From: Candidatus Nitrosacidococcus sp. I8
GTDB taxonomy: Bacteria > Pseudomonadota > Gammaproteobacteria > Nitrosococcales > Nitrosococcaceae
Assembly: GCF_945836005.1 (NCBI RefSeq)
Contig: NZ_OX241534.1
Span: 620,001 to 684,000, forward strand
Reading direction: 5' to 3'
Length of the DNA stretch: 64,000 nucleotides
The stretch's first letter is position 1, and every line of letters starts with the position of its first letter. The notes below the pieces were generated by a model. It saw only the letters and a list, made by a program, of their open reading frames with translations, made no database searches and was not told the DNA's origin. A program made the translations under genes and the position numbers. This document shows positions 9,594 to 47,159 of this stretch, piece by piece.

Positions 9594-10439
9594 TTAAGCT
9601 TGTCTTGCGATTGCGGTTTCTAGTAACTGTAAAAAACTTCTTTCATCATTGACTTCTGCGAGCTCATTTGTAGTAATAGTATAGCCAATACTATCTGCAA
9701 CGGCTTGATAACGTGGGAGTCTGGCATAAAATAAGCGAGGAAAGACCCAACGAGCAAATTCATCAGGATCTATTAAAGCCACATATGGGAGCTCTTTTTC
9801 TTGACTATATTGAGCAAGCTGCTCATCTAGAAAATCGTCTCTAAAATAGAGAGGTTTAGGATATTCTTCAGCACGTTTAATGAGGGCTTGCTCATTTTTT
9901 TCAGTAGTTTTAATATACAAAATTAAAGTATGCTGTGCTAGAGTAGTCAAAACGCTAGCATCATTTAGTTCTGAAATACTTCCCCCCGCATCATTTATAA
10001 AATGCTGGTAACCATAAATACTGCGAGATTTATGGATAAACTCAGGCACATCTTTCATCGCAGCAATTTCTGCTTGCCGGTGTAATTCTTGCCGGCGTTT
10101 AAATTCTTTTAATCCTAATCCCCCTAGCTCTGGATTACCTAATTTTCCTAAAAAACTAGATACGGGACTTAAGTTATCTACGGTAATGTTATTACGAATA
10201 TGAATGGAGTCTGACCGAAGTAAATCCCTTAAAAAAGGGATATGTATCATTTGTTGCTTGATATTATCAAGAATAGACTCATCTAAATAGCGGGCACCAA
10301 TCCGGTAATCCCCAGAATAATGAAACCAATTATGCTTATAGAGCATAGAGGCAAGATAAGTTTTCCCTACCCCGGACATACCGAGCAGAGTAATTGCCTT
10401 ATTTTTCCAATCTTTAAACCTTTTAACCGTAAATTTCAT
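9594..10439 (-). CDS. P-loop ATPase of unknown role, upstream of metA
   Basis: 281 residues. Walker A is LGMSGVGKT (K26, T27), and a possible Walker B is FINDAGGS near residue 147. The protein contains short conserved-looking blocks such as SGDYRIGARYLDE and RLPRYQAVADSIGYTI that resemble nucleotide kinases, but no kinase signature that I can name. It is cytoplasmic. It is co-directional with metA (13-base gap), so a link to methionine metabolism is possible but unproven. Confidence 0.65.
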   Translation of the reverse strand: MKFTVKRFKDWKNKAITLLGMSGVGKTYLASMLYKHNWFHYSGDYRIGARYLDESILDNIKQQMIHIPFLRDLLRSDSIHIRNNITVDNLSPVSSFLGKLGNPELGGLGLKEFKRRQELHRQAEIAAMKDVPEFIHKSRSIYGYQHFINDAGGSISELNDASVLTTLAQHTLILYIKTTEKNEQALIKRAEEYPKPLYFRDDFLDEQLAQYSQEKELPYVALIDPDEFARWVFPRLFYARLPRYQAVADSIGYTITTNELAEVNDERSFLQLLETAIARQA

Positions 10440-11063: not shown

Positions 11064-13319
11064 ATGAGTTTCAGAATAAAAACTTTACTATTAATCATAG
11101 TAAGCATCAGTATTATATTCAATACAACAAATGTAAACGCATCTGCAACCCTACAAGAGACTAAGCATACTGAACTACATGAAGTTATCTTTTCTCAACC
11201 TTCAGGATTTTACAAAAAAGACTTTACACTCACCCTAAGCCATCCAGATAACAATGTAATCATCTATTACACCTTAGATGGATCAGAGCCTGATCCCAAT
11301 AACTTAAAGGGTAGTACCTATCGGTATAAAAATAACTACGAGCAACCACCTAATAAACCTAAAGATAACTTTCTATACCATCGTTATAAAACCTATCAAT
11401 ATAGCCAACCCATTCTTATCAAAGATAGAACAAATGAGCCTGATAGAATTTCTCAAATTTCTACCACAACAGATAAATGGCCTTTTTATTTTCCCCAACC
11501 TTGGGGAGTGTATGAGGTTAATAAAGTCATTAATAGAATAAATTATTTTCCTAATAGAGTAATTCGTAAATTTCACAAAATTACTACTGGTGAAATAACC
11601 CCTATAGGTACAAAAACATTTATTCCGCTGATTACTACAAAAAACTACAGTAATAAAGGTACCTCAGTTAGAGCTATTGCAGTAAGTCAAGAAGGGATAA
11701 AGAGTCCTATAGTTACTCATACCTTTTTTATCTGGGATAAAAATATTTTTCATTCACCCATTATCGCACTCACCGCACCAGAAAAAAATTTGTTTGATTA
11801 CGATGAGGGAATATTTGTCGCAGGTAAAGATTATGATGAGTGGCTTATTACCGATCCAAATTGGATGATTACTGATATTAAAGCTCCAGCAAATTGGCGC
11901 CGAAAAGGTAAACGTATAAAAGCTACTCTAGAGCAGATTGATTCAAATCAATCATACCCAAACTTAAATATAGAGATAAAGATTCATGGCAACAGTTCTC
12001 GTGTAAATACAGACAAAAACTTTAGAATTTATTTAAAGAAAAATCAATCCTTAGTGGGTTTCACCCCTAATGGGGAAGATTTAAAAGGACTACGTTTTAA
12101 TTTTATAATTGATGGAAGAGAGAGTACTAATAGTACTGGAATTGTTTTTATTTCCGATACTACGGCACAAAGGATAGTAGAAGGATTATCTTTTGGTACC
12201 CAAAGCTCTTATGGTTATCGAAATATCTTTTTAAATGGAGAGTACTATGGCGTTAGAAATATACGAGATGTAAAAGATACCCGCTATATTCGCTATTTCT
12301 ACCATCTGCCGCATAAGAAAAAAATACAATTGCTCTTTAATAAATTTAATAATGAAATTTCTACTACTAAAAGGCTTCCTCCTATTTTAAAAGGGGACTT
12401 CCAAGAATGGAAAGACCTTAACCAAGCCTTTAATCAAAAAGAGAATCAAAATATAGATTTTGCTCAAAAATATATCGATATCAACAGCTTTATTGATTAT
12501 TATGTTGCTGAAATTTTTCTAGCTAATAAAGACTGGCCAGATAATAATTATGCTTTTTGGAAATACTTAGGAAAGTATAATCAAAACAGCTCTACCTCAG
12601 ATGGTAGGTATCGTTGGCTTATTTATGATTTAGATGCTACTTTCAAAGATATTAATACTAATTATCTAGAAAAGGCTATTGATATTCGCACCCAACAATA
12701 CTTATTTACTTCTATATTTCGTTCTCTGCTAAATAACTTAGAATTCAAAGAACAATTTATTACTCGGTTTAGCGATTTAATGAATACTACCTTTGTCCCT
12801 GAGCGAATGGTTAAGATTATTGAAAATACGAAACAAGAAGTAGAAAAAGATGTCCCACTTCACATTAAGCGCTGGAAATCTCGTAATATAAACGACTGGA
12901 AAAGTGATGTATCAAATATGGTTAATTTTGCTCGAGAACGTCCAGCTATTCAATACCAGCAGCTACAAGATTTTTTCAAACTAAGTAGTATTTATCAGCT
13001 TAAGGTAGATGTAAATGATCCAGGGTTTGGATCGATAAAAATTAATACACTTCACTTAGGGTTAAAAGATAATGAATTAACAAAACCAGTAGCAGCTAGT
13101 CATTTACCTACTCTGATGGAAGATGTTTTGGCATTTCCTTGGCAAGGTAAATATTTTCAGGATTTACCGCTCAAACTAGAGGCTATTCCTAAACTTGGCT
13201 ATCAATTTAGCTATTGGCAGGGAGAGGGGCTTAGTCAAGAGCAAATAATCAATTCTATTTTAGAGTTACTGCCACAATCTAATATAAAACTTGTCGCCGT
13301 GTTCGAGAAAGTGAATTGA
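11064..13319 (+). CDS. Secreted CotH-family kinase-like protein, copy 1
   Basis: 751 residues. Signal peptide about 1-27 (ends NVNASA). Residues about 40-75 form a chitobiase/hexosaminidase C-terminal-like beta domain (PSGFYKKDF, YYTLDGSEPD). The CotH domain spans about 225-640: KIHGNSSRVNTDKNFRIYL near 306, YGVRNIRDVKDTRYI near 398, DWPDNNYAFWK, and the metal-site motif IYDLDATF near 522. The C-terminus (about 650-751) resembles a divergent InlB B-repeat (AIPKLGYQFSYWQGEG). CotH of Bacillus is an atypical protein kinase; export with surface-type domains suggests extracellular phosphorylation, which is inference. It shares its whole 3' third, apparently identical, with copy 2. No Shine-Dalgarno is visible. 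Confidence 0.85.
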   Translation: MSFRIKTLLLIIVSISIIFNTTNVNASATLQETKHTELHEVIFSQPSGFYKKDFTLTLSHPDNNVIIYYTLDGSEPDPNNLKGSTYRYKNNYEQPPNKPKDNFLYHRYKTYQYSQPILIKDRTNEPDRISQISTTTDKWPFYFPQPWGVYEVNKVINRINYFPNRVIRKFHKITTGEITPIGTKTFIPLITTKNYSNKGTSVRAIAVSQEGIKSPIVTHTFFIWDKNIFHSPIIALTAPEKNLFDYDEGIFVAGKDYDEWLITDPNWMITDIKAPANWRRKGKRIKATLEQIDSNQSYPNLNIEIKIHGNSSRVNTDKNFRIYLKKNQSLVGFTPNGEDLKGLRFNFIIDGRESTNSTGIVFISDTTAQRIVEGLSFGTQSSYGYRNIFLNGEYYGVRNIRDVKDTRYIRYFYHLPHKKKIQLLFNKFNNEISTTKRLPPILKGDFQEWKDLNQAFNQKENQNIDFAQKYIDINSFIDYYVAEIFLANKDWPDNNYAFWKYLGKYNQNSSTSDGRYRWLIYDLDATFKDINTNYLEKAIDIRTQQYLFTSIFRSLLNNLEFKEQFITRFSDLMNTTFVPERMVKIIENTKQEVEKDVPLHIKRWKSRNINDWKSDVSNMVNFARERPAIQYQQLQDFFKLSSIYQLKVDVNDPGFGSIKINTLHLGLKDNELTKPVAASHLPTLMEDVLAFPWQGKYFQDLPLKLEAIPKLGYQFSYWQGEGLSQEQIINSILELLPQSNIKLVAVFEKVN

Positions 13320-13410
13320 TTTAATTACCTTTTAAAGCTAAATTTTTAAATTTATTAGGGCTATAATATCGGACTCATAATAGAGCTCTATCTCCATTAA
13401 TCGTTAGACT

Positions 13411-13438
13411 CTAATTCACAAAATTACCCCACTGTATT
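13411..13438. repeat. Upstream repeat of CotH copy 2 (partner 19433-19460)
   Basis: The 28 bases directly before the ATG, beginning CTAATTCACAAAATTA and ending CCACTGTATT, are the same in front of copies 2 and 4. Copy 3 lacks them because its ATG is fused to the end of the VTC gene. The shared block may carry the translation start signals, although it holds no Shine-Dalgarno sequence. Confidence 0.75.
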
Positions 13439-15642
13439 ATGAACTCTAGAATACAAGCACTATTACTGATAAGTATATATAGCCTGTTTAACATAGCATC
13501 TCTAAAAGCAGACACAACTGCACAAGCCAGCCTAGAGAAAAACCCAACAACCCCTAACGAAGTTATCTTTTCTCAACCTTCAGGATTTTACAAAGAAGAC
13601 TTTACCCTTACCCTAAGCCATCCAGATAACAACATCACCATTTATTACACCCTAGATGGATCAGAGCCTGATCCCAACAACTTAAAGGGTAGTACCTATC
13701 GCTATAAAAATAACTATGAGCAACCACCTAATAAACCTAAAGATAACTTTCTATACCATCGTTATAAAACCTATCAATATAGCCAACCCATTCTTATCAA
13801 AGATAGAACAAATGAGCCTGATAGAATTTCTCAAATTTCTACCACAACAGATAAATGGCCCTTTTATTTTCCTCAGCCTTGGGGGGTATATGAAGTCAAT
13901 AGAATTGTTGAAAAAATAAATATAATAACCCATAAAGAAACGATTCCTTTACCCTTAATTACTTTAAAAAAGCATGGCTATAAAGGTACACCATTCAGGG
14001 CAATTGCGGTTAATGAATTTGGAATAAAAAGCCCGATTACTACCCATACTTTCTTTATTGGTAACCGAGAAGAATTTCATCTACCTATTATTGCTTTAAC
14101 TGTTCCAGAGAAGGATTTATTTGATTACGACGAGGGAATATTTGTCGCAGGTAAAGATTATGATGAATGGCTAAGCTCTAATCCTGAAAGATTAAAACCC
14201 TCTAGATCTGATAGTACACCAGCTAACTGGCGTAGAGAAGGTAAATCTACCAATAGAAAGCCCGCAACTTTAGAGCCACTTAATCTAGATCAAATATCAC
14301 TTTCTTTAGACACACAATTAAAACTACAGGGGAATAGTTCCCGTAGTGCATTTGATAAAAGTTTTAGAATTTATTTAAAGAAAAATCAATCCTTGGTGGG
14401 TTTCACCCCTAATGGGGAAGATTTAAAAGGACTAAATTTTAATTTTAGAGTAAGCAATAACTTTATTCTTGACGCTGCAGCACAAAGGATAGTAGAAGGA
14501 TTATCTTTTGGTACCCAAAGCTCTTATGGTTATCGAAATATCTTTTTAAATGGAGAGTACTATGGCGTTAGAAATATACGAGATGTAAAAGATACTCGCT
14601 ATATTCGCTATTTCTACCATCTGCCGCATAAGAAAAAAATACAATTGCTCTTTAATAAAGCCGATAATGAAACTCCAACTAATAAGGATTTACCTCCTAT
14701 TTTAAAAGGGGACTTCCAAGAATGGAAAGACCTTAACCAAGCCTTTAATCAAAAAGAGAATCAAAATATAGATTTTGCTCAAAAATATATCGATATCAAC
14801 AGCTTTATTGATTATTATGTTGCTGAAATTTTTCTAGCTAATAAAGACTGGCCAGATAATAATTATGCTTTTTGGAAATACTTAGGAAAGTATAATCAAA
14901 ACAGCTCTACCTCAGATGGTAGGTATCGTTGGCTTATTTATGATTTAGATGCTACTCAAAGACTTTCAAAGATATTAATACTAATTATCTAGAAAAGGCT
15001 ATTGATATTCGCACCCAACAATACTTATTTACTTCTATATTTCGTTCTCTGCTAAATAACTTAGAATTCAAAGAACAATTTATTACTCGGTTTAGCGATT
15101 TAATGAATACTACCTTTGTCCCTGAGCGAATGGTTAAGATTATTGAAAATACGAAACAAGAAGTAGAAAAAGATGTCCCACTTCACATTAAGCGCTGGAA
15201 ATCTCGTAATATAAACGACTGGAAAAGTGATGTATCAAATATGGTTAATTTTGCTCGAGAACGTCCAGCTATTCAATACCAGCAGCTACAAGATTTTTTC
15301 AAACTAAGTAGTATTTATCAGCTTAAGGTAGATGTAAATGATCCAGGGTTTGGATCGATAAAAATTAATACACTTCACTTAGGGTTAAAAGATAATGAAT
15401 TAACAAAACCAGTAGCAGCTAGTCATTTACCTACTCTGATGGAAGATGTTTTGGCATTTCCTTGGCAAGGTAAATATTTTCAGGATTTACCGCTCAAACT
15501 AGAGGCTATTCCTAAACTTGGCTATCAATTTAGCTATTGGCAGGGAGAGGGGCTTAGTCAAGAGCAAATAATCAATTCTATTTTAGAGTTACTGCCACAA
15601 TCTAATATAAAACTTGTCGCCGTGTTCGAGAAAGTGAATTGA
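13439..15642 (+). pseudogene. CotH-family gene copy 2, frameshifted
   Basis: The reading frame is intact for 517 codons (13439-14992) and then resumes in another frame to 15642. Compared with copy 1, the only lesion is an 8-base insertion CAAAGACT at 14957-14964, immediately after the YDLDAT codons; it looks like an imperfect tandem duplication next to TTCAAAG. After the insertion the remaining 678 bases seem identical to copy 1 (12642-13319). The N-terminal 400 bases instead match copies 3 and 4, including the signal peptide, so this copy is a mosaic. As read it would give a truncated protein that keeps the DLD motif but loses the rest of the kinase fold and the C-terminal domain. Recent inactivation, phase variation or an assembly error are all possible. 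Confidence 0.8.
14957..14964. other. 8-base frameshifting insertion in CotH copy 2
   Basis: Copy 1 reads GCTACT-TTCAAAG; copy 2 reads GCTACT-CAAAGACT-TTCAAAG. The inserted bases duplicate the flanking ACT/CAAAG elements, as expected from replication slippage. Removing them would restore a full-length frame ending at 15642. Confidence 0.8.
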
Positions 15643-15665
15643 TTATATTCTATTTATATTTAAAC

Positions 15666-15694
15666 AAATAATAGTAGAGAGCAAAACCAGTAAT
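15666..15694. repeat. Repeat after CotH copy 2 (partner 19357-19385)
   Basis: A 29-base block beginning AAATAATAGTAGAGAGC and ending AAACCAGTAAT occurs here and, with one A/G change, right after CotH copy 3 (19357-19385). It marks the 3' flank of the duplicated CotH cassette and implies that the copies arose by tandem duplication including downstream DNA. Confidence 0.75.
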
Positions 15695-15810
15695 TTTTTA
15701 TATATAAGCACTTTGAGTCCCTCTATTTATTATAATATTAGGAATTAGTAGAGTAGAATAGATTCTCTCCCTCTTACTTAATTTTATATAAATTTAATGA
15801 AAAAAATATT

Positions 15811-16383
15811 ATGTTAGAAGCTGAATTTATTAAACTTTTAATCAGTTTCACTATAAATACCCTAGCAGTAGCTATTTTACTGTTTGGTATGTTTTGGCCA
15901 CGGTACAAAAATAAAGAAATTACCCTGGCTGCAGCTTTATTTAATACTTTCACTTTTGGTGTTCTTTCTATCTTATCTAATGTAGATTTTAGTATTGCGG
16001 CAGGTTTTGGTTTATTTGCGATTCTCGCCTTATTTAATTTACGATCTGAGGCAATAGATAAATCCAGTATTGCTTACTTTTTCGGTGGTATCTCTATTGC
16101 GGTTATTACCTCAATAGGGGGGGCTAGCTTTAGCTTTGTAATTACAATACTAACTATTGTATTAGGATTAGTCTATTTAGTAGACCACCCTAAGATATTC
16201 CGTTATACCGGACAGATCAACGTTACTTTAGATTCTATCCCGCAAAATATTCTGGCTGAATCTGAACTCTTATATAAAGAATTATCGCAACGACTTAATG
16301 TAGAAGTAATTTCTGCAAAAGTCCTTTCTATAAATTATGTGACTGAAGTTGTAAAAATAGAAATTAGCTACAAAATTTCATAA
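15811..16383 (+). CDS. DUF4956 membrane protein
   Basis: 190 residues. About four membrane helices (residues 8-28, 38-58, 60-80 with FGLFAILALFNLRSEAID, and 95-125) are followed by a soluble C-terminal tail (VTLDSIPQNILAESELL) of ferredoxin-like appearance. The FGLFAILALFNLR block is diagnostic of DUF4956. In many bacteria this family sits beside VTC-domain polyphosphate polymerases and CotH proteins, exactly as here; its biochemical role is not known. It lies three bases before the VTC gene, so the two are co-transcribed. Confidence 0.85.
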   Translation: MLEAEFIKLLISFTINTLAVAILLFGMFWPRYKNKEITLAAALFNTFTFGVLSILSNVDFSIAAGFGLFAILALFNLRSEAIDKSSIAYFFGGISIAVITSIGGASFSFVITILTIVLGLVYLVDHPKIFRYTGQINVTLDSIPQNILAESELLYKELSQRLNVEVISAKVLSINYVTEVVKIEISYKIS

Positions 16384-16386
16384 GCT

Positions 16387-17202
16387 ATGGAGTTTAAAAA
16401 TACTCTTCAAGGCTTTACAGGAATTAGCTTAGCTGAGCTAAAAGATCGTGCTGAATTAATGCAGCGTGCTAATAACAAGTATGTTTTAGACACAAATACG
16501 CTTATTATTTTTCTAGAGGCGATGCAAAATGATTTTTGCATATTAGAAATCAATAAGATTAGAGATTTTACCTATCATAATATTTATTGGGATAGCCCAA
16601 ATTTACGTACTTTTTACGATCACAATAAAGATCGACGTAAACGTTTTAAGGTGCGTTTTCGCTATTACCTAGAAAGTAATTTATTTTTCTTCGAGGTAAA
16701 AATTAGGGAAGCTCGAAGTATTACTTATAAATATCGACTACCTATCGATATAGAAACTTATCAAACAAAGAGATTACCTGAAGCATTGTTCAGGTTTCTT
16801 AGTGAAAAAATATACCAACATTATGCTTACACATTAGCTAATGATTTTATTCCAAGTATTCAAAATAGTTATCTACGCTTAACCCTAGTTGCAAAAGAGA
16901 GTGTTGAGCGAATTACGGTAGATCATCAGCTTCTTTTTACCTTTGAACAACAAAAGGATAACCTACCCTTCAATCGGTATATTATTGAAGTAAAATCTAC
17001 TACAGGACGCAGTAGCGTAGATCGTTGGTTACAACACAATCATTATCGCCCTGTAAGTAAATGCTCAAAATATAGCATAGGTGTAAGTTTGCTTAAATTA
17101 ACTCATAAAAACACTCAATTTACCCCAACTATTCGCCGAGCGTTTCATAAACCTATGGATAGTTTTAAACATATATCTCTATCCGTAAAGCCCCCTTCAT
17201 GA
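16387..17202 (+). CDS. VTC-domain (polyphosphate polymerase-like) protein
   Basis: 271 residues, no signal peptide, so cytoplasmic, perhaps held at the membrane by the DUF4956 partner. It has the VTC tunnel pattern: an N-terminal Lys in RANNKYVLD, IYWDSPNLRTFYDH, basic strands KRFKVRFRYY, FFEVKIREARSITYKYR, and a late IIEVKS pair of Glu and Lys. In yeast Vtc4 such Lys/Arg/Glu residues line a tunnel that makes polyphosphate from ATP. Whether this copy makes polyphosphate or another phosphate-containing product is not known. Its last four bases overlap the start of CotH copy 3 (ATGA, 17199-17202), indicating translational coupling. Confidence 0.85.
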   Translation: MEFKNTLQGFTGISLAELKDRAELMQRANNKYVLDTNTLIIFLEAMQNDFCILEINKIRDFTYHNIYWDSPNLRTFYDHNKDRRKRFKVRFRYYLESNLFFFEVKIREARSITYKYRLPIDIETYQTKRLPEALFRFLSEKIYQHYAYTLANDFIPSIQNSYLRLTLVAKESVERITVDHQLLFTFEQQKDNLPFNRYIIEVKSTTGRSSVDRWLQHNHYRPVSKCSKYSIGVSLLKLTHKNTQFTPTIRRAFHKPMDSFKHISLSVKPPS

Positions 17203-19358
17203 ACTCTAGAATACAAGCGCTATTACTGATAAGTATATATAGCCTGTTTAACATAGCATCTCTAAAAGCAGACACAACTGCACAAGCCAGCCTAGAGAAA
17301 AACCCAACAACCCCTAACGAAGTTATCTTTTCTCAACCTTCAGGATTTTACAAAGAAGACTTTACCCTTACCCTAAGCCATCCAGATAACAACATCACCA
17401 TTTATTACACCCTAGATGGATCAGAGCCTGATCCCAACAACTTAAAGGGTAGTACCTATCGCTATAAAAATAACTATGAGCAACCACCTAATAAACCTAA
17501 AGATAACTTTCTATACCATCGTTATAAAACCTATCAATATAGCCAACCCATTCTTATCAAAGATAGAACAAATGAGCCTGATAGAATTTCTCAAATTTCT
17601 ACTACCTTTGATGAAAAACCAGATTATTTTCCTCAAAAAAATCAGGGCTCAAATAATACAAACAGAATAATTAAAGGTACTCCAGTACGTGCTATTGCTG
17701 TCAATGAGGCTGGAGTAAAAAGCCCGATGATTACCCATACTTTTTTTATTGGCAGTCAAGAAGAGTTTCACTTGCCTATTATCGCTTTGACTGTGCCAGA
17801 GAAAGATTTATTTGGCTACGATGAAGGGATATTTGTTGTAGGTCGTGATTATGATGAGTGGTTAGCCACTGAACCAGAGCAACTTAAACCTTCTCGGGCA
17901 AGTAGTACACCGGCTAATTGGCATAGAAAAGATAAAGTCGCTACAAGAAAAAATGCTGCTATGGAGCAGCTTAATTTAAACCAAGAATCACCGAATTTAG
18001 ATGTAAAAATAAGTATTCATGGAAATGGATCTCGAATGAATCGAGACAAGAGCTTTAGGATCTATTTAGGTAGATATCAATCCTTAGCACACTTTGTCCC
18101 CAATGGTAGTTCTTTAAAAGAATTACGTTTTAATTTTAAGGTAGGAAAACGTAAAACAAATAATTTTATTACTTTTATCACAGATACTGCAGCTCAAAGA
18201 ATCATAGCAGGATTATCCTTTGGTACCCAAAACTCCTACGGCTATCGGAATATCTTCTTAAATGGAGAATATTATGGCATTAGAAATATCCAAGATGTAA
18301 AAGATACTCGCTATATTCACCATTTTTACCACTTGAATCATAGAAAAAAAATAGAATTACTCTTTAATAGATCCAATAATGAAATTCCTAATAATGAATA
18401 TCATCTCCCTATTCTAAAAGGAAGTTTTCAAGAATGGAGGAAAATTAACCAAGCCTTTGAACAAAAAGAAAATCAAAATATAAACTTTGCCCAAAAATAT
18501 ATCGATATCAACAGCTTTATTGATTACTATATCGCTGAAATTTATCTGGCTAATAGAGACTGGCTAGATAATAATTATGCTTTTTGGAAATACTCAGGGA
18601 AGAATCGTGAGAATAACCCTATCGCAGATGGTAGGTATCGTTGGCTTATTTATGATTTAGATGCTACTTTCAGAGAAAGTAATACTAATTCTTTAGAAAA
18701 GACTACTGATATTAATGATCGGCAATATCTATTTACCTTTATATTTTCTACGTTACTTAAAAATCCTGAGTTTAAAGAGCGATTTATTACTCGATTTAGC
18801 GATTTAATGAATACCACGTTTGTTCCTGATCGAATGGTTAGGGTGATTGAAAATATGAAACAAGAAGTAGAAAAAGATGTCCTACTTCACATTAAACGCT
18901 GGAAATCTCCTATTAGCATAGAAGCTTGGCAAGATAATATTAACATTATGGTTAATTTTGCTCGAGAGCGTCCAGCTATTCAATATCAACAGCTACAGGA
19001 TTTTTTCAAGCTAGACGATACTTATCAGCTTAAGGTAGCTATAAATGATCAAGCTGCAGGGACAGTAAAAGTCAATACGCTTCAGTTAGGATTAAAGGAT
19101 AATGAATTAACAAAGCCAGTGGCAGCAAGTAGTGCTGCTATATTAATGGAGCAAGTACTGGCTTTTCCTTGGCAGGGTAGGTATTTTAAAGAATTACCCC
19201 TTAAACTAGAGGCTATTCCTAAACTTGGCTATCAATTTAGTCATTGGCAAGGAGAGGGATTTACTCAAGAACAAGCAATTAATCCTATTTTAGCGTTACA
19301 GCCAAAATCTAATATAAAGCTTGTTGCCATGTTTGAAAAAGTGAACTATGTACAGTAA
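17199..19358 (+). CDS. Secreted CotH-family kinase-like protein, copy 3
   Basis: 719 residues. The signal peptide (about 1-25, NSRIQALLLISIYSLFNIA) is identical to copies 2 and 4. Domains follow the same order: chitobiase-like beta domain (about 40-80), CotH domain with IHGNGSRMNRDKSFRIYL near 272 and IYDLDATF near 485, and an InlB-like C-terminal repeat near 672. The start overlaps the stop of the VTC gene by four bases, tying a CotH product directly to the polymerase gene. Bases 17199-17974 appear identical to copy 4 (19461-20236), after which the two diverge. The variable part covers the CotH N-lobe and may set substrate choice; this is inference. Confidence 0.85.
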   Translation: MNSRIQALLLISIYSLFNIASLKADTTAQASLEKNPTTPNEVIFSQPSGFYKEDFTLTLSHPDNNITIYYTLDGSEPDPNNLKGSTYRYKNNYEQPPNKPKDNFLYHRYKTYQYSQPILIKDRTNEPDRISQISTTFDEKPDYFPQKNQGSNNTNRIIKGTPVRAIAVNEAGVKSPMITHTFFIGSQEEFHLPIIALTVPEKDLFGYDEGIFVVGRDYDEWLATEPEQLKPSRASSTPANWHRKDKVATRKNAAMEQLNLNQESPNLDVKISIHGNGSRMNRDKSFRIYLGRYQSLAHFVPNGSSLKELRFNFKVGKRKTNNFITFITDTAAQRIIAGLSFGTQNSYGYRNIFLNGEYYGIRNIQDVKDTRYIHHFYHLNHRKKIELLFNRSNNEIPNNEYHLPILKGSFQEWRKINQAFEQKENQNINFAQKYIDINSFIDYYIAEIYLANRDWLDNNYAFWKYSGKNRENNPIADGRYRWLIYDLDATFRESNTNSLEKTTDINDRQYLFTFIFSTLLKNPEFKERFITRFSDLMNTTFVPDRMVRVIENMKQEVEKDVLLHIKRWKSPISIEAWQDNINIMVNFARERPAIQYQQLQDFFKLDDTYQLKVAINDQAAGTVKVNTLQLGLKDNELTKPVAASSAAILMEQVLAFPWQGRYFKELPLKLEAIPKLGYQFSHWQGEGFTQEQAINPILALQPKSNIKLVAMFEKVNYVQ

Positions 19359-19385
19359 ATAATAGTAGAGAGCGAAACCAGTAAT
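19357..19385. repeat. Repeat after CotH copy 3 (partner 15666-15694)
   Basis: Same 29-base block as after copy 2 with one substitution (GCG for GCA in the middle). It overlaps the stop codon of copy 3. Confidence 0.75.
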
Positions 19386-19432
19386 CTTTAGGGGATCGAT
19401 CTGTATAGTCACTATCTAGCTAGCATTAGAAA

Positions 19433-19460
19433 CTAATTCACAAAATTACCCCACTGTATT
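19433..19460. repeat. Upstream repeat of CotH copy 4 (partner 13411-13438)
   Basis: Identical to the 28 bases before CotH copy 2; see that entry. It shows that the duplicated cassette includes DNA upstream of the coding region. Confidence 0.75.
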
Positions 19461-21617
19461 ATGAACTCTAGAATACAAGCGCTATTACTGATAAGTATAT
19501 ATAGCCTGTTTAACATAGCATCTCTAAAAGCAGACACAACTGCACAAGCCAGCCTAGAGAAAAACCCAACAACCCCTAACGAAGTTATCTTTTCTCAACC
19601 TTCAGGATTTTACAAAGAAGACTTTACCCTTACCCTAAGCCATCCAGATAACAACATCACCATTTATTACACCCTAGATGGATCAGAGCCTGATCCCAAC
19701 AACTTAAAGGGTAGTACCTATCGCTATAAAAATAACTATGAGCAACCACCTAATAAACCTAAAGATAACTTTCTATACCATCGTTATAAAACCTATCAAT
19801 ATAGCCAACCCATTCTTATCAAAGATAGAACAAATGAGCCTGATAGAATTTCTCAAATTTCTACTACCTTTGATGAAAAACCAGATTATTTTCCTCAAAA
19901 AAATCAGGGCTCAAATAATACAAACAGAATAATTAAAGGTACTCCAGTACGTGCTATTGCTGTCAATGAGGCTGGAGTAAAAAGCCCGATGATTACCCAT
20001 ACTTTTTTTATTGGCAGTCAAGAAGAGTTTCACTTGCCTATTATCGCTTTGACTGTGCCAGAGAAAGATTTATTTGGCTACGATGAAGGGATATTTGTTG
20101 TAGGTCGTGATTATGATGAGTGGTTAGCCACTGAACCAGAGCAACTTAAACCTTCTCGGGCAAGTAGTACACCGGCTAATTGGCATAGAAAAGATAAAGT
20201 CGCTACAAGAAAAAATGCTGCTATGGAGCAGCTTAACCAAAATCAATTATCCCCTAGTTTAAATGTAGAATTAAAAATCCATGGTAATGGTTCTCGAATG
20301 GATTCATATAAGAGCTTTAGGGTCTACTTAGAGGAAAACCAATCGTTAAAAGGTTTTGTCCCTAATGGAGAGAGGTTAACCGGGTTACGGTTAAATTTTA
20401 GACATGATGGGATACCTCATGGAATTATCAGATCGAGCAATTTTGTTACTGATACCGCAGCCCAAAGAATCACAGAAGGATTATCTTTTGGTACCCAACA
20501 TTCCTATGGCTATCGTAATATCTTCTTGAATGGAGAATATTATGGGATTAGAAATATCAGAGATGCCAAAGATAATCGCTATGTTAGTCACTTCTATCAT
20601 TTAGCCCATCGAAAAAAAATAGAGATATTATTCAACAAAGCCAATAATGAAGTCCCCACGAACGAAGATCTCCCTTCGCTTTTAAAAGGAAATTTTGAAG
20701 AGTGGAATAAACTTAACCAAGCCTTTGAGCAAAAAGAAAATCAAAATTTAGATTTTGCTCAAAACTATATCGATGTAGAGAGCTTTATTGATTATTATAT
20801 TGCCGAGATCTTTTTAGCCAACACGGATTGGCCTCAAAATAACTATGCCTTTTGGAAATATTTAGGTAAGGCTGTAGAAAATAATCTAACTTCTGATGGA
20901 AGGTATCGCTGGCTAATATATGATTTAGATGCCGCTTTTCTGAAAATAAATAATAAATCATTAGAAAGAGCGACTGTTACCGATTCTGAGCGATACCCCT
21001 TTACCTTCATGTTCTCCACTTTACTTAAAAGTCCTGAGTTTAAAGAACGATTTATTACTAGGTTTAGCGATTTAATGAATACCACTTTCGTACCAGAGCG
21101 AATGGTAAAAATTATAGAAAATACGAAAAAAGAAGTAGAAAAAGACATTCTGCTTCACATTGAACGCTGGAAATATCCACCTAGTATGGAGGAATGGAAA
21201 AATAGTATTAATCTTATGATTGGATTTGCTCGTCAGCGTCCTGCTATTCAGTACGAACAACTACAAGATTTTTTTAAGCTGGATAATACTTATCAAGTTA
21301 AAGTAGATGTCAATGATTCTGCTTCTGGGATAGTTACAGTAAATACGCTTCAGTTAGGGTTAAAGGACAATGAATTAACAAAGCCAATAGCAGCAACTGA
21401 TTCTGCCATATTTATGGAAGATGTTTTAGCTTTGCCTTGGCAAGGTAAGTATTTTAAACAGCTACCTCTTAAACTAGAGGCTATTCCTAAATCTGGCTAT
21501 CAATTTAGTCATTGGCAAGGAGAAGGGCTTACTCAAGCACAGATGATTCATCCTATTTTAGCGTTACAGCCAAAATCTAATATAAAGCTTGTTGCCGTAT
21601 TTGAGAGGGAAAATTAA
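19461..21617 (+). CDS. Secreted CotH-family kinase-like protein, copy 4
   Basis: 718 residues with the same layout as copy 3: signal peptide, chitobiase-like beta domain, CotH domain (IHGNGSRMDSYKSFRVYL near 272; IYDLDAAF near 488) and InlB-like C-terminal repeat (IPKSGYQFSHWQGEG). The first 776 bases appear identical to copy 3, then the two diverge in a patchwork way. The 28 bases before the ATG match those of copy 2. A perfect 20-base palindrome covers its stop codon and probably ends the transcript of the island. Confidence 0.85.
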   Translation: MNSRIQALLLISIYSLFNIASLKADTTAQASLEKNPTTPNEVIFSQPSGFYKEDFTLTLSHPDNNITIYYTLDGSEPDPNNLKGSTYRYKNNYEQPPNKPKDNFLYHRYKTYQYSQPILIKDRTNEPDRISQISTTFDEKPDYFPQKNQGSNNTNRIIKGTPVRAIAVNEAGVKSPMITHTFFIGSQEEFHLPIIALTVPEKDLFGYDEGIFVVGRDYDEWLATEPEQLKPSRASSTPANWHRKDKVATRKNAAMEQLNQNQLSPSLNVELKIHGNGSRMDSYKSFRVYLEENQSLKGFVPNGERLTGLRLNFRHDGIPHGIIRSSNFVTDTAAQRITEGLSFGTQHSYGYRNIFLNGEYYGIRNIRDAKDNRYVSHFYHLAHRKKIEILFNKANNEVPTNEDLPSLLKGNFEEWNKLNQAFEQKENQNLDFAQNYIDVESFIDYYIAEIFLANTDWPQNNYAFWKYLGKAVENNLTSDGRYRWLIYDLDAAFLKINNKSLERATVTDSERYPFTFMFSTLLKSPEFKERFITRFSDLMNTTFVPERMVKIIENTKKEVEKDILLHIERWKYPPSMEEWKNSINLMIGFARQRPAIQYEQLQDFFKLDNTYQVKVDVNDSASGIVTVNTLQLGLKDNELTKPIAATDSAIFMEDVLALPWQGKYFKQLPLKLEAIPKSGYQFSHWQGEGLTQAQMIHPILALQPKSNIKLVAVFEREN

Positions 21618-21725: not shown

Positions 21726-22832
21726 ATGAAAACACGTGCTGCGATTGCTTGGGAGGCAAATAAACCTCTTGTAGTTGAAAATATCGAACTTTCAGGTCCT
21801 AAGGAGGGTGAAGTATTAGTAGAGCTTAAAGCTACAGGTATTTGCCATACAGACTATTACACCCTTTCTGGATCCGATCCTGAAGGACTTTTTCCTTCTA
21901 TACTTGGTCATGAAGGTGCTGGGGTAGTGGTGGAAGTGGGTGCAGGAGTGAAATCCCTCAAAATAGGGGATCACGTCATTCCCTTGTACACTCCAGAATG
22001 TCGTGAATGTAAGTTTTGTTTATCTAAAAAAACCAATCTTTGCCAAGCTATTCGCCAGACTCAGGGGCAAGGATTAATGCCTGATGGCACTGCTCGATTC
22101 TCTTTTAAAGATAAATCTATATTCCACTATATGGGCACCTCTACTTTCTCAAATTATAGTGTGATCCCAGAAATTGCTTTGGCTAAAATTCGGCAGGATG
22201 CTCCTTTTGATAAGGTATGTTATATCGGCTGCGGAGTAACCACTGGAATTGGGGCAGTGGTCTTTACTGCTCAGGTAGAAACGGGGGCTAATGTAGCTGT
22301 CTTTGGATTAGGTGGCATTGGGTTGAATGTGATTCAAGGTGCCAAAATGGTAGGGGCTAATAAGATTATTGGTATTGATACTAATCCAAATCGAGAAATG
22401 ATGGCTCGTCAATTTGGGATGACTGATTTTGTTAATCCTAATAAAATTGAAAATGTAGTAGATACTATTATTCAACTCACCAGTGGCGGAGCAGATTATA
22501 GTTTTGAGTGTATTGGTAATACTCAAGTCATGCGCCAGGCACTAGAATGCACGCATAAAGGGTGGGGGCGAAGTATTATTATTGGCGTAGCTCCTGCAGG
22601 GGCTGAAATTAGCACCCGTCCATTCCAATTGGTTACTGGGCGAAAATGGGAAGGATCTGCCTTTGGAGGTGCAAGAGGTCGAACCGATGTACCTAAAATT
22701 GTAGATTGGTATATGGAAGGAAAGATTAATATCGATTCTTTGATTACCCATACCTTAGCACTAGAGGATATTAATGAAGGCTTTGATTTAATGAAAGCAG
22801 GTAAATCAATTCGAGCAGTGGTAGTTTATTAA
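21726..22832 (+). CDS. frmA: Class III alcohol dehydrogenase / S-(hydroxymethyl)glutathione dehydrogenase
   Basis: 368 residues, the normal length. Catalytic zinc ligands are Cys40 (TGICHTD) and His62 (LGHEGAG); structural zinc Cys92, 95, 98 and 106 lie in PECRECKFCLSKKTNLC. The NAD-binding GLGGIGLN loop is present. The enzyme oxidises the glutathione adduct of formaldehyde to S-formylglutathione, and also reduces S-nitrosoglutathione, a useful reaction in an organism that meets nitric oxide during ammonia oxidation. The gene for the next enzyme, S-formylglutathione hydrolase, follows after 24 bases but is broken. Confidence 0.93.
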   Translation: MKTRAAIAWEANKPLVVENIELSGPKEGEVLVELKATGICHTDYYTLSGSDPEGLFPSILGHEGAGVVVEVGAGVKSLKIGDHVIPLYTPECRECKFCLSKKTNLCQAIRQTQGQGLMPDGTARFSFKDKSIFHYMGTSTFSNYSVIPEIALAKIRQDAPFDKVCYIGCGVTTGIGAVVFTAQVETGANVAVFGLGGIGLNVIQGAKMVGANKIIGIDTNPNREMMARQFGMTDFVNPNKIENVVDTIIQLTSGGADYSFECIGNTQVMRQALECTHKGWGRSIIIGVAPAGAEISTRPFQLVTGRKWEGSAFGGARGRTDVPKIVDWYMEGKINIDSLITHTLALEDINEGFDLMKAGKSIRAVVVY

Positions 22833-25153: not shown

Positions 25154-25564
25154 ATGAAAATAACTAAAGCAATATTAATTGGTTTTTTAAGTGCATTATT
25201 TGTAGGTGCTGCTCAAGCAAAGGAAGTTGATTTCACGGTAGTAATGGAAGCTGATGATATCAATATTCCAGAGCTCAAAGTAGAAGGAGTAACTATTAAG
25301 AATATTCGTGAATTCCATGTACTCAACGAACCTGCTGGTCTTGTAGTACATAAAGGTGATACCGTTAAAATTACCGTAGACAACAAGTCTCCTATTAGTG
25401 AAGGATTTGCTATTGATGCTTATGGCATTAAAGAAACCATTAAAGCTGGAGAAAAAGCAACAATTAATTTAACTGCAAATAAGACAGGCGCTTTCACCAT
25501 TTGGTGCCATCTCCATCCTAAAGGAATTCACCTACCCGGTTCTTTAAATGTAGTAGAAGACTAA
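25154..25564 (+). CDS. ncyA: Nitrosocyanin (red copper protein)
   Basis: 136 residues. Signal peptide 1-22 (ends AAQA), so periplasmic. The mature part closely follows the Nitrosomonas europaea protein as I know it: [43 protein letters not shown] and [11 protein letters not shown]. All four ligands of the red copper site are present: Glu83 (ISEGF), Cys118, His121 and His126. The Cys loop has His119 where N. europaea has Gln. Nitrosocyanin is abundant in ammonia oxidisers and is thought to act in electron transfer or catalysis around hydroxylamine/NO chemistry, but its reaction is unproven. The gene stands alone, with a strong terminator after it. Confidence 0.93.
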
Positions 25565-46050: not shown

Positions 46051-47159
46051 GTTCACCGCCGGATAGGCGGTTTAGAAAAATGGATAAATAATCTTAAGTG
46101 GGATGGGGTGGTTCACCGCCGGATAGGCGGTTTAGAAATTGTATCCTAGTTCTTCAATGAAATCAAAGAGGTTCACCGCCGGATAGGCGGTTTAGAAATT
46201 CGCTGTAGTAAAGACTGTAGCATGAAACAAGTTCACCGCCGGATAGGCGGTTTAGAAAAGGGCATACATTTAGCACTCTGTGACTGATAAGTTCACCGCC
46301 GGATAGGCGGTTTAGAAATCAAAGATACAAGAGCACAGTAGAAAAATCTAGTTCACCGCCGGATAGGCGGTTTAGAAATATTTCGCTAAGTGCTTGATAA
46401 CCCTAGAATTGTTCACCGCCGAATAGGCGGTTTAGAAAATACATAAAGGTCGTAGGGGTTTGAAATTTCACGTTCACCGCCGGATAGGCGGTTTAGAAAT
46501 ATAGCAAGTAGTATAGTGCTAACTTAACCCTGTTCACCGCCGGATAGGCGGTTTAGAAACCTCGTGAGGTGTAGGATCAGGGCATAACATAGTTCACCGC
46601 CGGATAGGCGGTTTAGAAATTCAAGCTGTACACAAGTAGAACCGATTACCCGTTCACCGCCGGATAGGCGGTTTAGAAATTCAAGCTGTACACAAGTAGA
46701 ACCGATTACCCGTTCACCGCCGGATAGGCGGTTTAGAAATCCTCATCTCGGTGTCAAATTCGTTCTGCAAAGTTCACCGCCGGATAGGCGGTTTAGAAAT
46801 TCAGAAACGTATCTGCTTGCTCGAGTTTCCCGTTCACCGCCGGATAGGCGGTTTAGAAATTATTAGGAGAATAAAAACGAATGACTAACACGTTCACCGC
46901 CGGATAGGCGGTTTAGAAAACGGATGCAGATAGAGTAATCGGCATCGCTGAGTTCACCGCCGGATAGGCGGTTTAGAAATAACACGCTGCACAGTAGAGC
47001 AACCATGATCGGTTCACCGCCGGATAGGCGGTTTAGAAAATTAACTTTGAAGCAGCAACGAGTTGTATCTGGTTCACCGCCGGATAGGCGGTTTAGAAAT
47101 AGTGAATACGAACAAGCGACTTGGACACCTAGTTCACCGCCGGATAGGCAGCTTAAATT
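46051..47159 (+). CRISPR. Type I-F CRISPR array, 19 repeats and 18 spacers
   Basis: Repeats are 28 bases, starting GTTCACCGCC and ending GGCGGTTTAGAAA, with a CCGCC/GGCGG stem and a five-base GGATA loop: the I-F type, with CCGCC/GGCGG replacing the commoner CTGCC/GGCAG stem. The repeat at 46411 has a G to A change in the loop. The last repeat (47132-47159) is degenerate: its 3' part is GGCAGCTTAAATT, closer to the common I-F consensus in the stem, which creates one mismatch. Spacers are 32 bases except one of 33 (46439-46471). Spacers at 46620-46651 and 46680-46711 are identical. No spacer source could be determined by eye. Confidence 0.98.

Follow-up and report, generated by a model that had tools for sequence, protein, structure and literature searches.

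A gene island in Candidatus Nitrosacidococcus sp. I8 links tandem CotH kinase-like genes to a DUF4956–VTC pair, a candidate polyphosphate synthase

Gene content of the island

Genes of the CotH, DUF4956 and VTC families form an island in the genome of Candidatus Nitrosacidococcus sp. I8, within a 64,000-nucleotide stretch of contig NZ_OX241534.1 (positions 620,001 to 684,000 of the forward strand) that was analysed as a whole and is referred to here as the window. An initial annotation had described four secreted CotH genes around a DUF4956 gene and a VTC gene. The families, the common strand and the coordinates (11064-21617 of the window) are confirmed, but the frame of the second CotH gene is broken by an 8-nucleotide insertion. 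The island therefore holds three intact CotH genes and one frameshifted copy, and a count of four intact genes is rejected. The host genome measures 1.85 Mb in a single contig; VTC and DUF4956 are each single-copy in it, and both lie inside the island. The genes considered, all on the forward strand, are the following.

11064..13319, forward strand: CotH1, intact, 751 amino acids, CotH kinase-like, with N-terminal CHB_HEX_C_1/Fn3_assoc domains and a sub-threshold InlB-like C-terminus; Asp490 and Asp522 kept
13439..15642, forward strand: CotH2, frameshifted, with open reading frames at 13439-14992 (517 amino acids) and 15103-15642 (179 amino acids); 5' 404 nucleotides like CotH3 and CotH4, 3' half like CotH1
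15811..16383, forward strand: DUF4956 protein, 190 amino acids, with five transmembrane helices and an ACT/ferredoxin-like tail; apparently a distant MgtC relative
16387..17202, forward strand: VTC-type triphosphate tunnel enzyme, 271 amino acids, predicted polyphosphate polymerase
17199..19358, forward strand: CotH3, intact, 719 amino acids; start overlaps the VTC stop (ATGA)
19461..21617, forward strand: CotH4, intact, 718 amino acids; initial 776 nucleotides the same as in CotH3

The VTC-type enzyme and its membrane partner

The VTC-type protein matches the family profile (PF09359) with an E value of 2e-26 and a score of 93.5 bits against a cut-off of 23. Its structural model (predicted local distance difference test score, pLDDT, 91; predicted template modelling score, pTM, 0.87) displays a complete triphosphate-tunnel fold, and the PDB entries that it matches best are those of the yeast VTC complex and of Vtc4, with a Foldseek E of 9e-13 and, for 3g3r, a Z of 17.5 across 214 residues. 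Chains of Vtc4, Vtc2 and the VTC complex occupy ranks 1-7 (Z 16.1-17.5, 209-227 residues), and other tunnel enzymes reach at most 14.9. Across 59 VTC homologues, K31, R90, R92, E103, K105, R164, R175, E201 and K203 are invariant. By motif, aided by a residue-level alignment with Vtc2 and without superposition, R90/R92 and E201 are equivalent to R264/R266 and E426 of yeast Vtc4, catalytic residues whose substitution inactivates the enzyme (PMC9911596). The protein is accordingly a predicted polyphosphate polymerase that keeps the catalytic residues and is modelled as nearer to polyphosphate polymerases than to other tunnel enzymes. Single-sequence searches of PDB sequences with VTC and CotH4 found no credible relative, and success required profiles or a more suitable relative.

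The neighbouring DUF4956 protein matches its profile (PF16316) above cut-off (E 2.4e-36) and is modelled (pLDDT 78) as five transmembrane helices with a tail of the beta-alpha-beta-beta type. A long DUF4956 subtype (L012, L013 and L017) aligns with MgtC (PF02308) across both the transmembrane part and the tail (hhalign probability 92%, E 5.8e-7, 171 columns), and is linked by profile to the short subtype of the window with a probability of 73%. Direct comparison of the short subtype with MgtC yields a probability of 0.5%, so that the long subtype alone bridges the two families; PHO4 transporters, used as controls, gave 0.1-0.4%. Among 54 short DUF4956 members, Pfam MgtC is the second commonest match, a weak one found in 18 of them (best E 0.0015). 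DUF4956 thus appears distantly related to the MgtC/YhiD family, weakly so for the short subtype of the window, whose conserved motif (GFGLFAILALFxLRSE) differs. Matches of the model to the PDB are weak (Foldseek E at least 0.098; best Z by VIA 6.4, in the noise range for helical models) and include some ACT-domain proteins; the MgtC fold is not listed among them, which excludes nothing. A read-through DUF4956–VTC chain intended for interface prediction was dropped, as its alignment mixed both proteins.

CotH proteins and the broken copy

In a profile search, the intact CotH copies match PF08757 above cut-off (E 2.7e-31, 7.5e-30 and 6.4e-36). Chitobiase-like and InlB-like surface domains had been proposed for these proteins: the former (CHB_HEX_C_1 and Fn3_assoc) exceed the cut-off, whereas the InlB-like Flg_new_2 match falls slightly under the curated cut-off in every copy. 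Examined by eye, the N-termini look like Sec signal peptides without a lipobox, and the proteins read as secreted. The catalytic Asp pair was mapped by aligning Bacillus CotH (5JD9) with a relative of the window copies (L084), which was then aligned by sequence with the copies themselves. The pair is present in CotH1 (D490 and D522), CotH3 and CotH4. In Bacillus subtilis CotH the catalytic residues are D228 and D251, and substituting them inactivates the protein (PMC7821199). CotH1, CotH3 and CotH4 are predicted kinases that share with this spore-coat kinase both the family assignment and the two catalytic Asp residues. They differ from it in being fused to chitobiase-like and InlB-like regions, in their linkage to VTC–DUF4956 and in not being spore proteins. 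The initial annotation had named loss of the catalytic residues on structural modelling as evidence against its proposal; they are retained in VTC and in all three intact CotH proteins, for CotH by alignment and not by model. The genome encodes one extra CotH-like domain (L004, G000:C1:1435156-1436121), which is unlinked to VTC or DUF4956.

CotH2 carries, relative to CotH1, an insertion of eight nucleotides, CAAAGACT, at approximately 14957-14964, and its kinase-domain frame breaks directly after the second catalytic-Asp motif (DLDAT). Phase variation was rejected, since no tandem repeats occur there, as was programmed frameshifting, since the insertion relative to CotH1 is a plain one.

The tandem copies are mosaics at the DNA level. 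The initial 404 nucleotides of CotH2 are the same as in CotH3 and CotH4 save for one mismatch, and CotH3 and CotH4 are identical for 776 nucleotides counted from the start codon. At the other end, CotH1 and CotH2 share 683 identical nucleotides up to and including the stop, as well as a separate identical tract of 264 before it. Outside these shared tracts, most 50-column windows show 40-92% DNA identity among the copies. Recent gene conversion between tandem paralogues probably produced this pattern, with assembly error as the alternative. When compared with CotH1, the other copies of the window are 69-72% identical and the CotH proteins of Hydrogenophaga 32-37%, which argues for amplification of CotH within this lineage.

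Gene conversion also bears on the junction with VTC. The CotH3 ATG at 17199 and the stop codon of VTC share the sequence ATGA, an overlap that had been taken to tie the two genes functionally. The overlap is real, but the identity of CotH3 with its paralogues starts precisely at the ATG, so that its 5' end has probably been overwritten recently and the overlap alone is no proof of an old coupling. The junction is nonetheless tight in six relatives, where the gap from VTC to CotH ranges from -7 to 36 nucleotides (Hydrogenophaga L025, L028 and L031; also L084, L089 and L092).

Linkage across genomes

Among 398 genomes of the same phylum, DUF4956 was found in eight and VTC above cut-off in seven; all seven have both genes, in the same neighbourhood (Fisher p 2.7e-14, or 2e-6 when counted by family). 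CotH exceeds the cut-off in 30 of these genomes and lies within a few kb of the pair in five of the seven with VTC. The order of the trio is permuted, with DUF-VTC-CotH, CotH-VTC-DUF and DUF-CotH-VTC all represented.

A second survey comprised 80 loci retrieved with the DUF4956 profile, three of which stop at a contig edge. VTC stands beside DUF4956 in 75 of the 77 evaluable loci, with a phytase-like gene between them in three (L039, L057 and L060); the two exceptions are from Nitrotoga. In the latter (Candidatus Nitrotoga L048 and L056) the DUF4956 is of the short subtype with no VTC gene nearby, and in L048 it precedes genes for Na/Ca and Na/H exchangers. CotH occurs in nine of the 50 genomes represented and is linked to the pair in six of those nine; in L071, contig coordinates place it upstream at a distance of about 2.6 kb. 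The 80 loci also have as neighbours phytase-like genes (PF13449, 26 loci), PiT/PHO4 transporters (10) and the phosphate-selective porin Porin_O_P (3). Phytase-like matches average 1.7 per genome, and their adjacency by chance is therefore expected at about 0.2%, against the 26 of 80 observed; Thauera phenolivorans even encodes a natural VTC–phytase-like (PF13449) fusion of 600 amino acids (L037:10598-12397). The genera behind the 80 loci are related, which makes the loci non-independent and the p-values indicative only. In Castellaniella (L027:2553-8836), the genes after DUF4956 and VTC encode an AraC-type regulator and then a YadA-like trimeric autotransporter adhesin of 1805 amino acids.

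Absence of conserved linkage in other genomes had been put forward as grounds for discarding the system. The same families are linked elsewhere, so that their linkage in the island is not due to chance, and the claim that they are known to co-occur is borne out: co-occurrence is nearly absolute for DUF4956 and VTC, and CotH accompanies them in a subset. The neighbourhoods indicate a putative two-gene core, DUF4956–VTC, joined by an interchangeable third gene whose phosphate-handling product is either exported or a transporter.

Origin of the island

DUF4956 is absent from 19 relatives of the host, five of which belong to the same family. In a sister genus (G398) both flanks are kept in conserved order, with P-loop (78% identity), homoserine succinyltransferase-like (79%), alcohol dehydrogenase (85%), esterase (68%) and nitrosocyanin (71%) genes, and the site of the island holds an unrelated 798-amino-acid kelch-like gene (L153:7119-9515) whose product reads as secreted. 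The island was therefore either gained by this lineage or lost from every other one in the sample. Its immediate neighbours are listed below.

9594..10439, reverse strand: left-flank P-loop protein; ortholog at L153:9995-10837 beside the equivalent site in the sister genus
21726..22832, forward strand: right-flank zinc alcohol dehydrogenase; 85% identical ortholog at the equivalent site in the sister genus

Elsewhere in the window, a nitrosocyanin gene at 25154-25564 makes the host probably a gammaproteobacterial ammonia oxidiser, and a CRISPR array with 18 repeats lies at 46051-47099 (Rfam CRISPR-DR4).

Ongoing loss of a redundant set of kinase genes, gained recently and without a function today, would fit the frameshift in CotH2, the absence of the island from all sampled relatives and its low guanine-cytosine content (33.7%, against 36.4% for the window). 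We consider such decay very unlikely, since DUF4956 and VTC are intact and the intact CotH copies retain their catalytic residues and show ratios of non-synonymous to synonymous substitution rates (dN/dS) of 0.16-0.24, which argue that purifying selection maintains them as functional genes.

Comparison with known systems

The association of the three families has already been published. Streptococci, clostridia and bifidobacteria were described as carrying a gene set for CotH, a polyphosphate polymerase and DUF4956 beside their pel genes (PMC7112168), and VTC and CotH genes had earlier been listed for one locus of Clostridium perfringens (PMC2879425). In Streptococcus intermedius the trio corresponds to SIR_1594-1592 (PMC7112168, PMC12345266), and its DUF4956 ortholog is reported to combine an MgtC transmembrane domain with an ACT domain (PMC12345266). 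The view that the system had no described function was overstated: in a 2025 study, S. intermedius mutants without the DUF4956 or the CotH ortholog aggregated less than half as much in artificial sputum and had altered amounts of Pel, and neither effect was reported for the VTC mutant (PMC12345266).

The authors of that study state that they could find no such trio away from the Pel locus (PMC12345266). PelG was not found in the present genome nor in nine of ten tested trio genomes, the tenth having it on another contig, and pel genes were not recognised in the island. The trio thus occurs outside Pel loci and in Gram-negatives, contradicting the published statement; this Gram-negative, Pel-independent version is new. 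Identification of the island as a Pel locus was rejected, the genome having no PelG. A broader proposal, in which CotH and DUF4956–VTC tune how much of a matrix polymer, Pel-like or not, is made or kept at the surface, would agree with the position of the published trio next to pel genes and with its effect on Pel levels. The same PelG survey and the lack of recognised polysaccharide genes in the island make it decidedly unlikely here.

With the Gram-positive Pel-locus cassette, the island shares the three families, including a secreted CotH, a polyphosphate polymerase-like VTC and a DUF4956 protein with an MgtC-like transmembrane part and ACT tail; it differs in having no pel genes, in belonging to a Gram-negative ammonia oxidiser and in its amplified, mosaic CotH genes. 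Among the closest relatives found are the Hydrogenophaga loci L025, L028 and L031 (DUF4956 46-53% and CotH 32-37% identical), which have the same DUF4956-VTC-CotH order and, in L028, the one scanned, the same CotH domain architecture, but a single CotH each and no tandem copies. The yeast VTC complex, in which Vtc4 joins a membrane domain of Vtc1/Vtc3, resembles the pair in its tunnel polymerase fold, catalytic residues and dedicated membrane partner. In contrast to yeast, no SPX domain was detected in the 271-amino-acid VTC protein of the window, and a distinct protein from another family (DUF4956/MgtC-like) provides the membrane part.

Proposed function and alternatives

We propose, at roughly even odds, that DUF4956 and VTC constitute a membrane-bound polyphosphate synthase, with CotH as a secreted kinase effector modifying the envelope or matrix, in a system that was horizontally acquired. 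As suggested by its fold and catalytic residues, VTC would use ATP to make polyphosphate on the cytoplasmic side of the membrane. DUF4956, its near-obligate membrane partner, would anchor the polymerase or regulate it, and may guide the chain towards the outside, like the membrane domain of yeast Vtc1/3/4. CotH, translated together with VTC, would be exported and phosphorylate envelope or matrix components, thereby altering the surface or aggregation, as family biochemistry and the S. intermedius mutants suggest; the synthase would either feed the secreted kinases or be co-regulated with them. In this lineage the CotH gene would have been amplified in tandem and then homogenised piecewise by gene conversion. 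'Candidatus Nitrosacidococcus tergens' (1.8 Mb genome), which resembles the host in genome size and physiology, forms large aggregates when the pH is acidic (PMC13170337), and aggregation of this kind is, speculatively, a trait that such a system could serve.

Several observations weigh against this proposal. Foldseek found no clear solved counterpart of the DUF4956 membrane part in the PDB, and no phosphorylated target was recognised in the island. No CotH is present in 41 of the 50 DUF4956–VTC genomes of the second survey, which makes CotH an optional partner. In S. intermedius, no effect on aggregation was reported for deletion of the VTC ortholog (PMC12345266), so that CotH is not obviously dependent on VTC in that species.

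The last two points also favour a self-contained role in phosphate storage or homeostasis, which we regard as possible though doubtful: the pair would make cytosolic polyphosphate under control of the ACT-like tail and without export, and CotH, phytase-like proteins, PiT transporters and porins would merely be co-regulated by phosphate supply, with CotH acting independently on the surface. Its partners vary by genome yet are phosphate-related, as this account would predict, and MgtC relatives have been tied to phosphate control (PMC12345266, PMC6658541). However, the trio stays together despite permuted order in several lineages, which suggests a closer coupling than co-regulation, and the near-zero or overlapping VTC–CotH junctions in six related loci and the existence of a VTC–phytase-like fusion point the same way.

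A more specific version of the membrane-bound synthase, in which DUF4956–VTC makes polyphosphate and threads it over the inner membrane as donor or substrate for extracytoplasmic CotH kinases here and for phytase-like proteins or porins elsewhere, seems unlikely. If true, such threading would explain how kinases secreted by bacteria can act in surroundings poor in ATP.

Significance

DUF4956 is scarcely covered in the literature searched, and no characterised bacterial VTC enzyme turned up in it, though the pair is widespread. The island of Candidatus Nitrosacidococcus sp. I8 is a candidate bacterial polyphosphate synthase tied to the envelope, and a candidate phosphate source of secreted kinases. 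The recurrence of its core beside varying phosphate-handling genes suggests a poorly explored phosphate system of the cell envelope.

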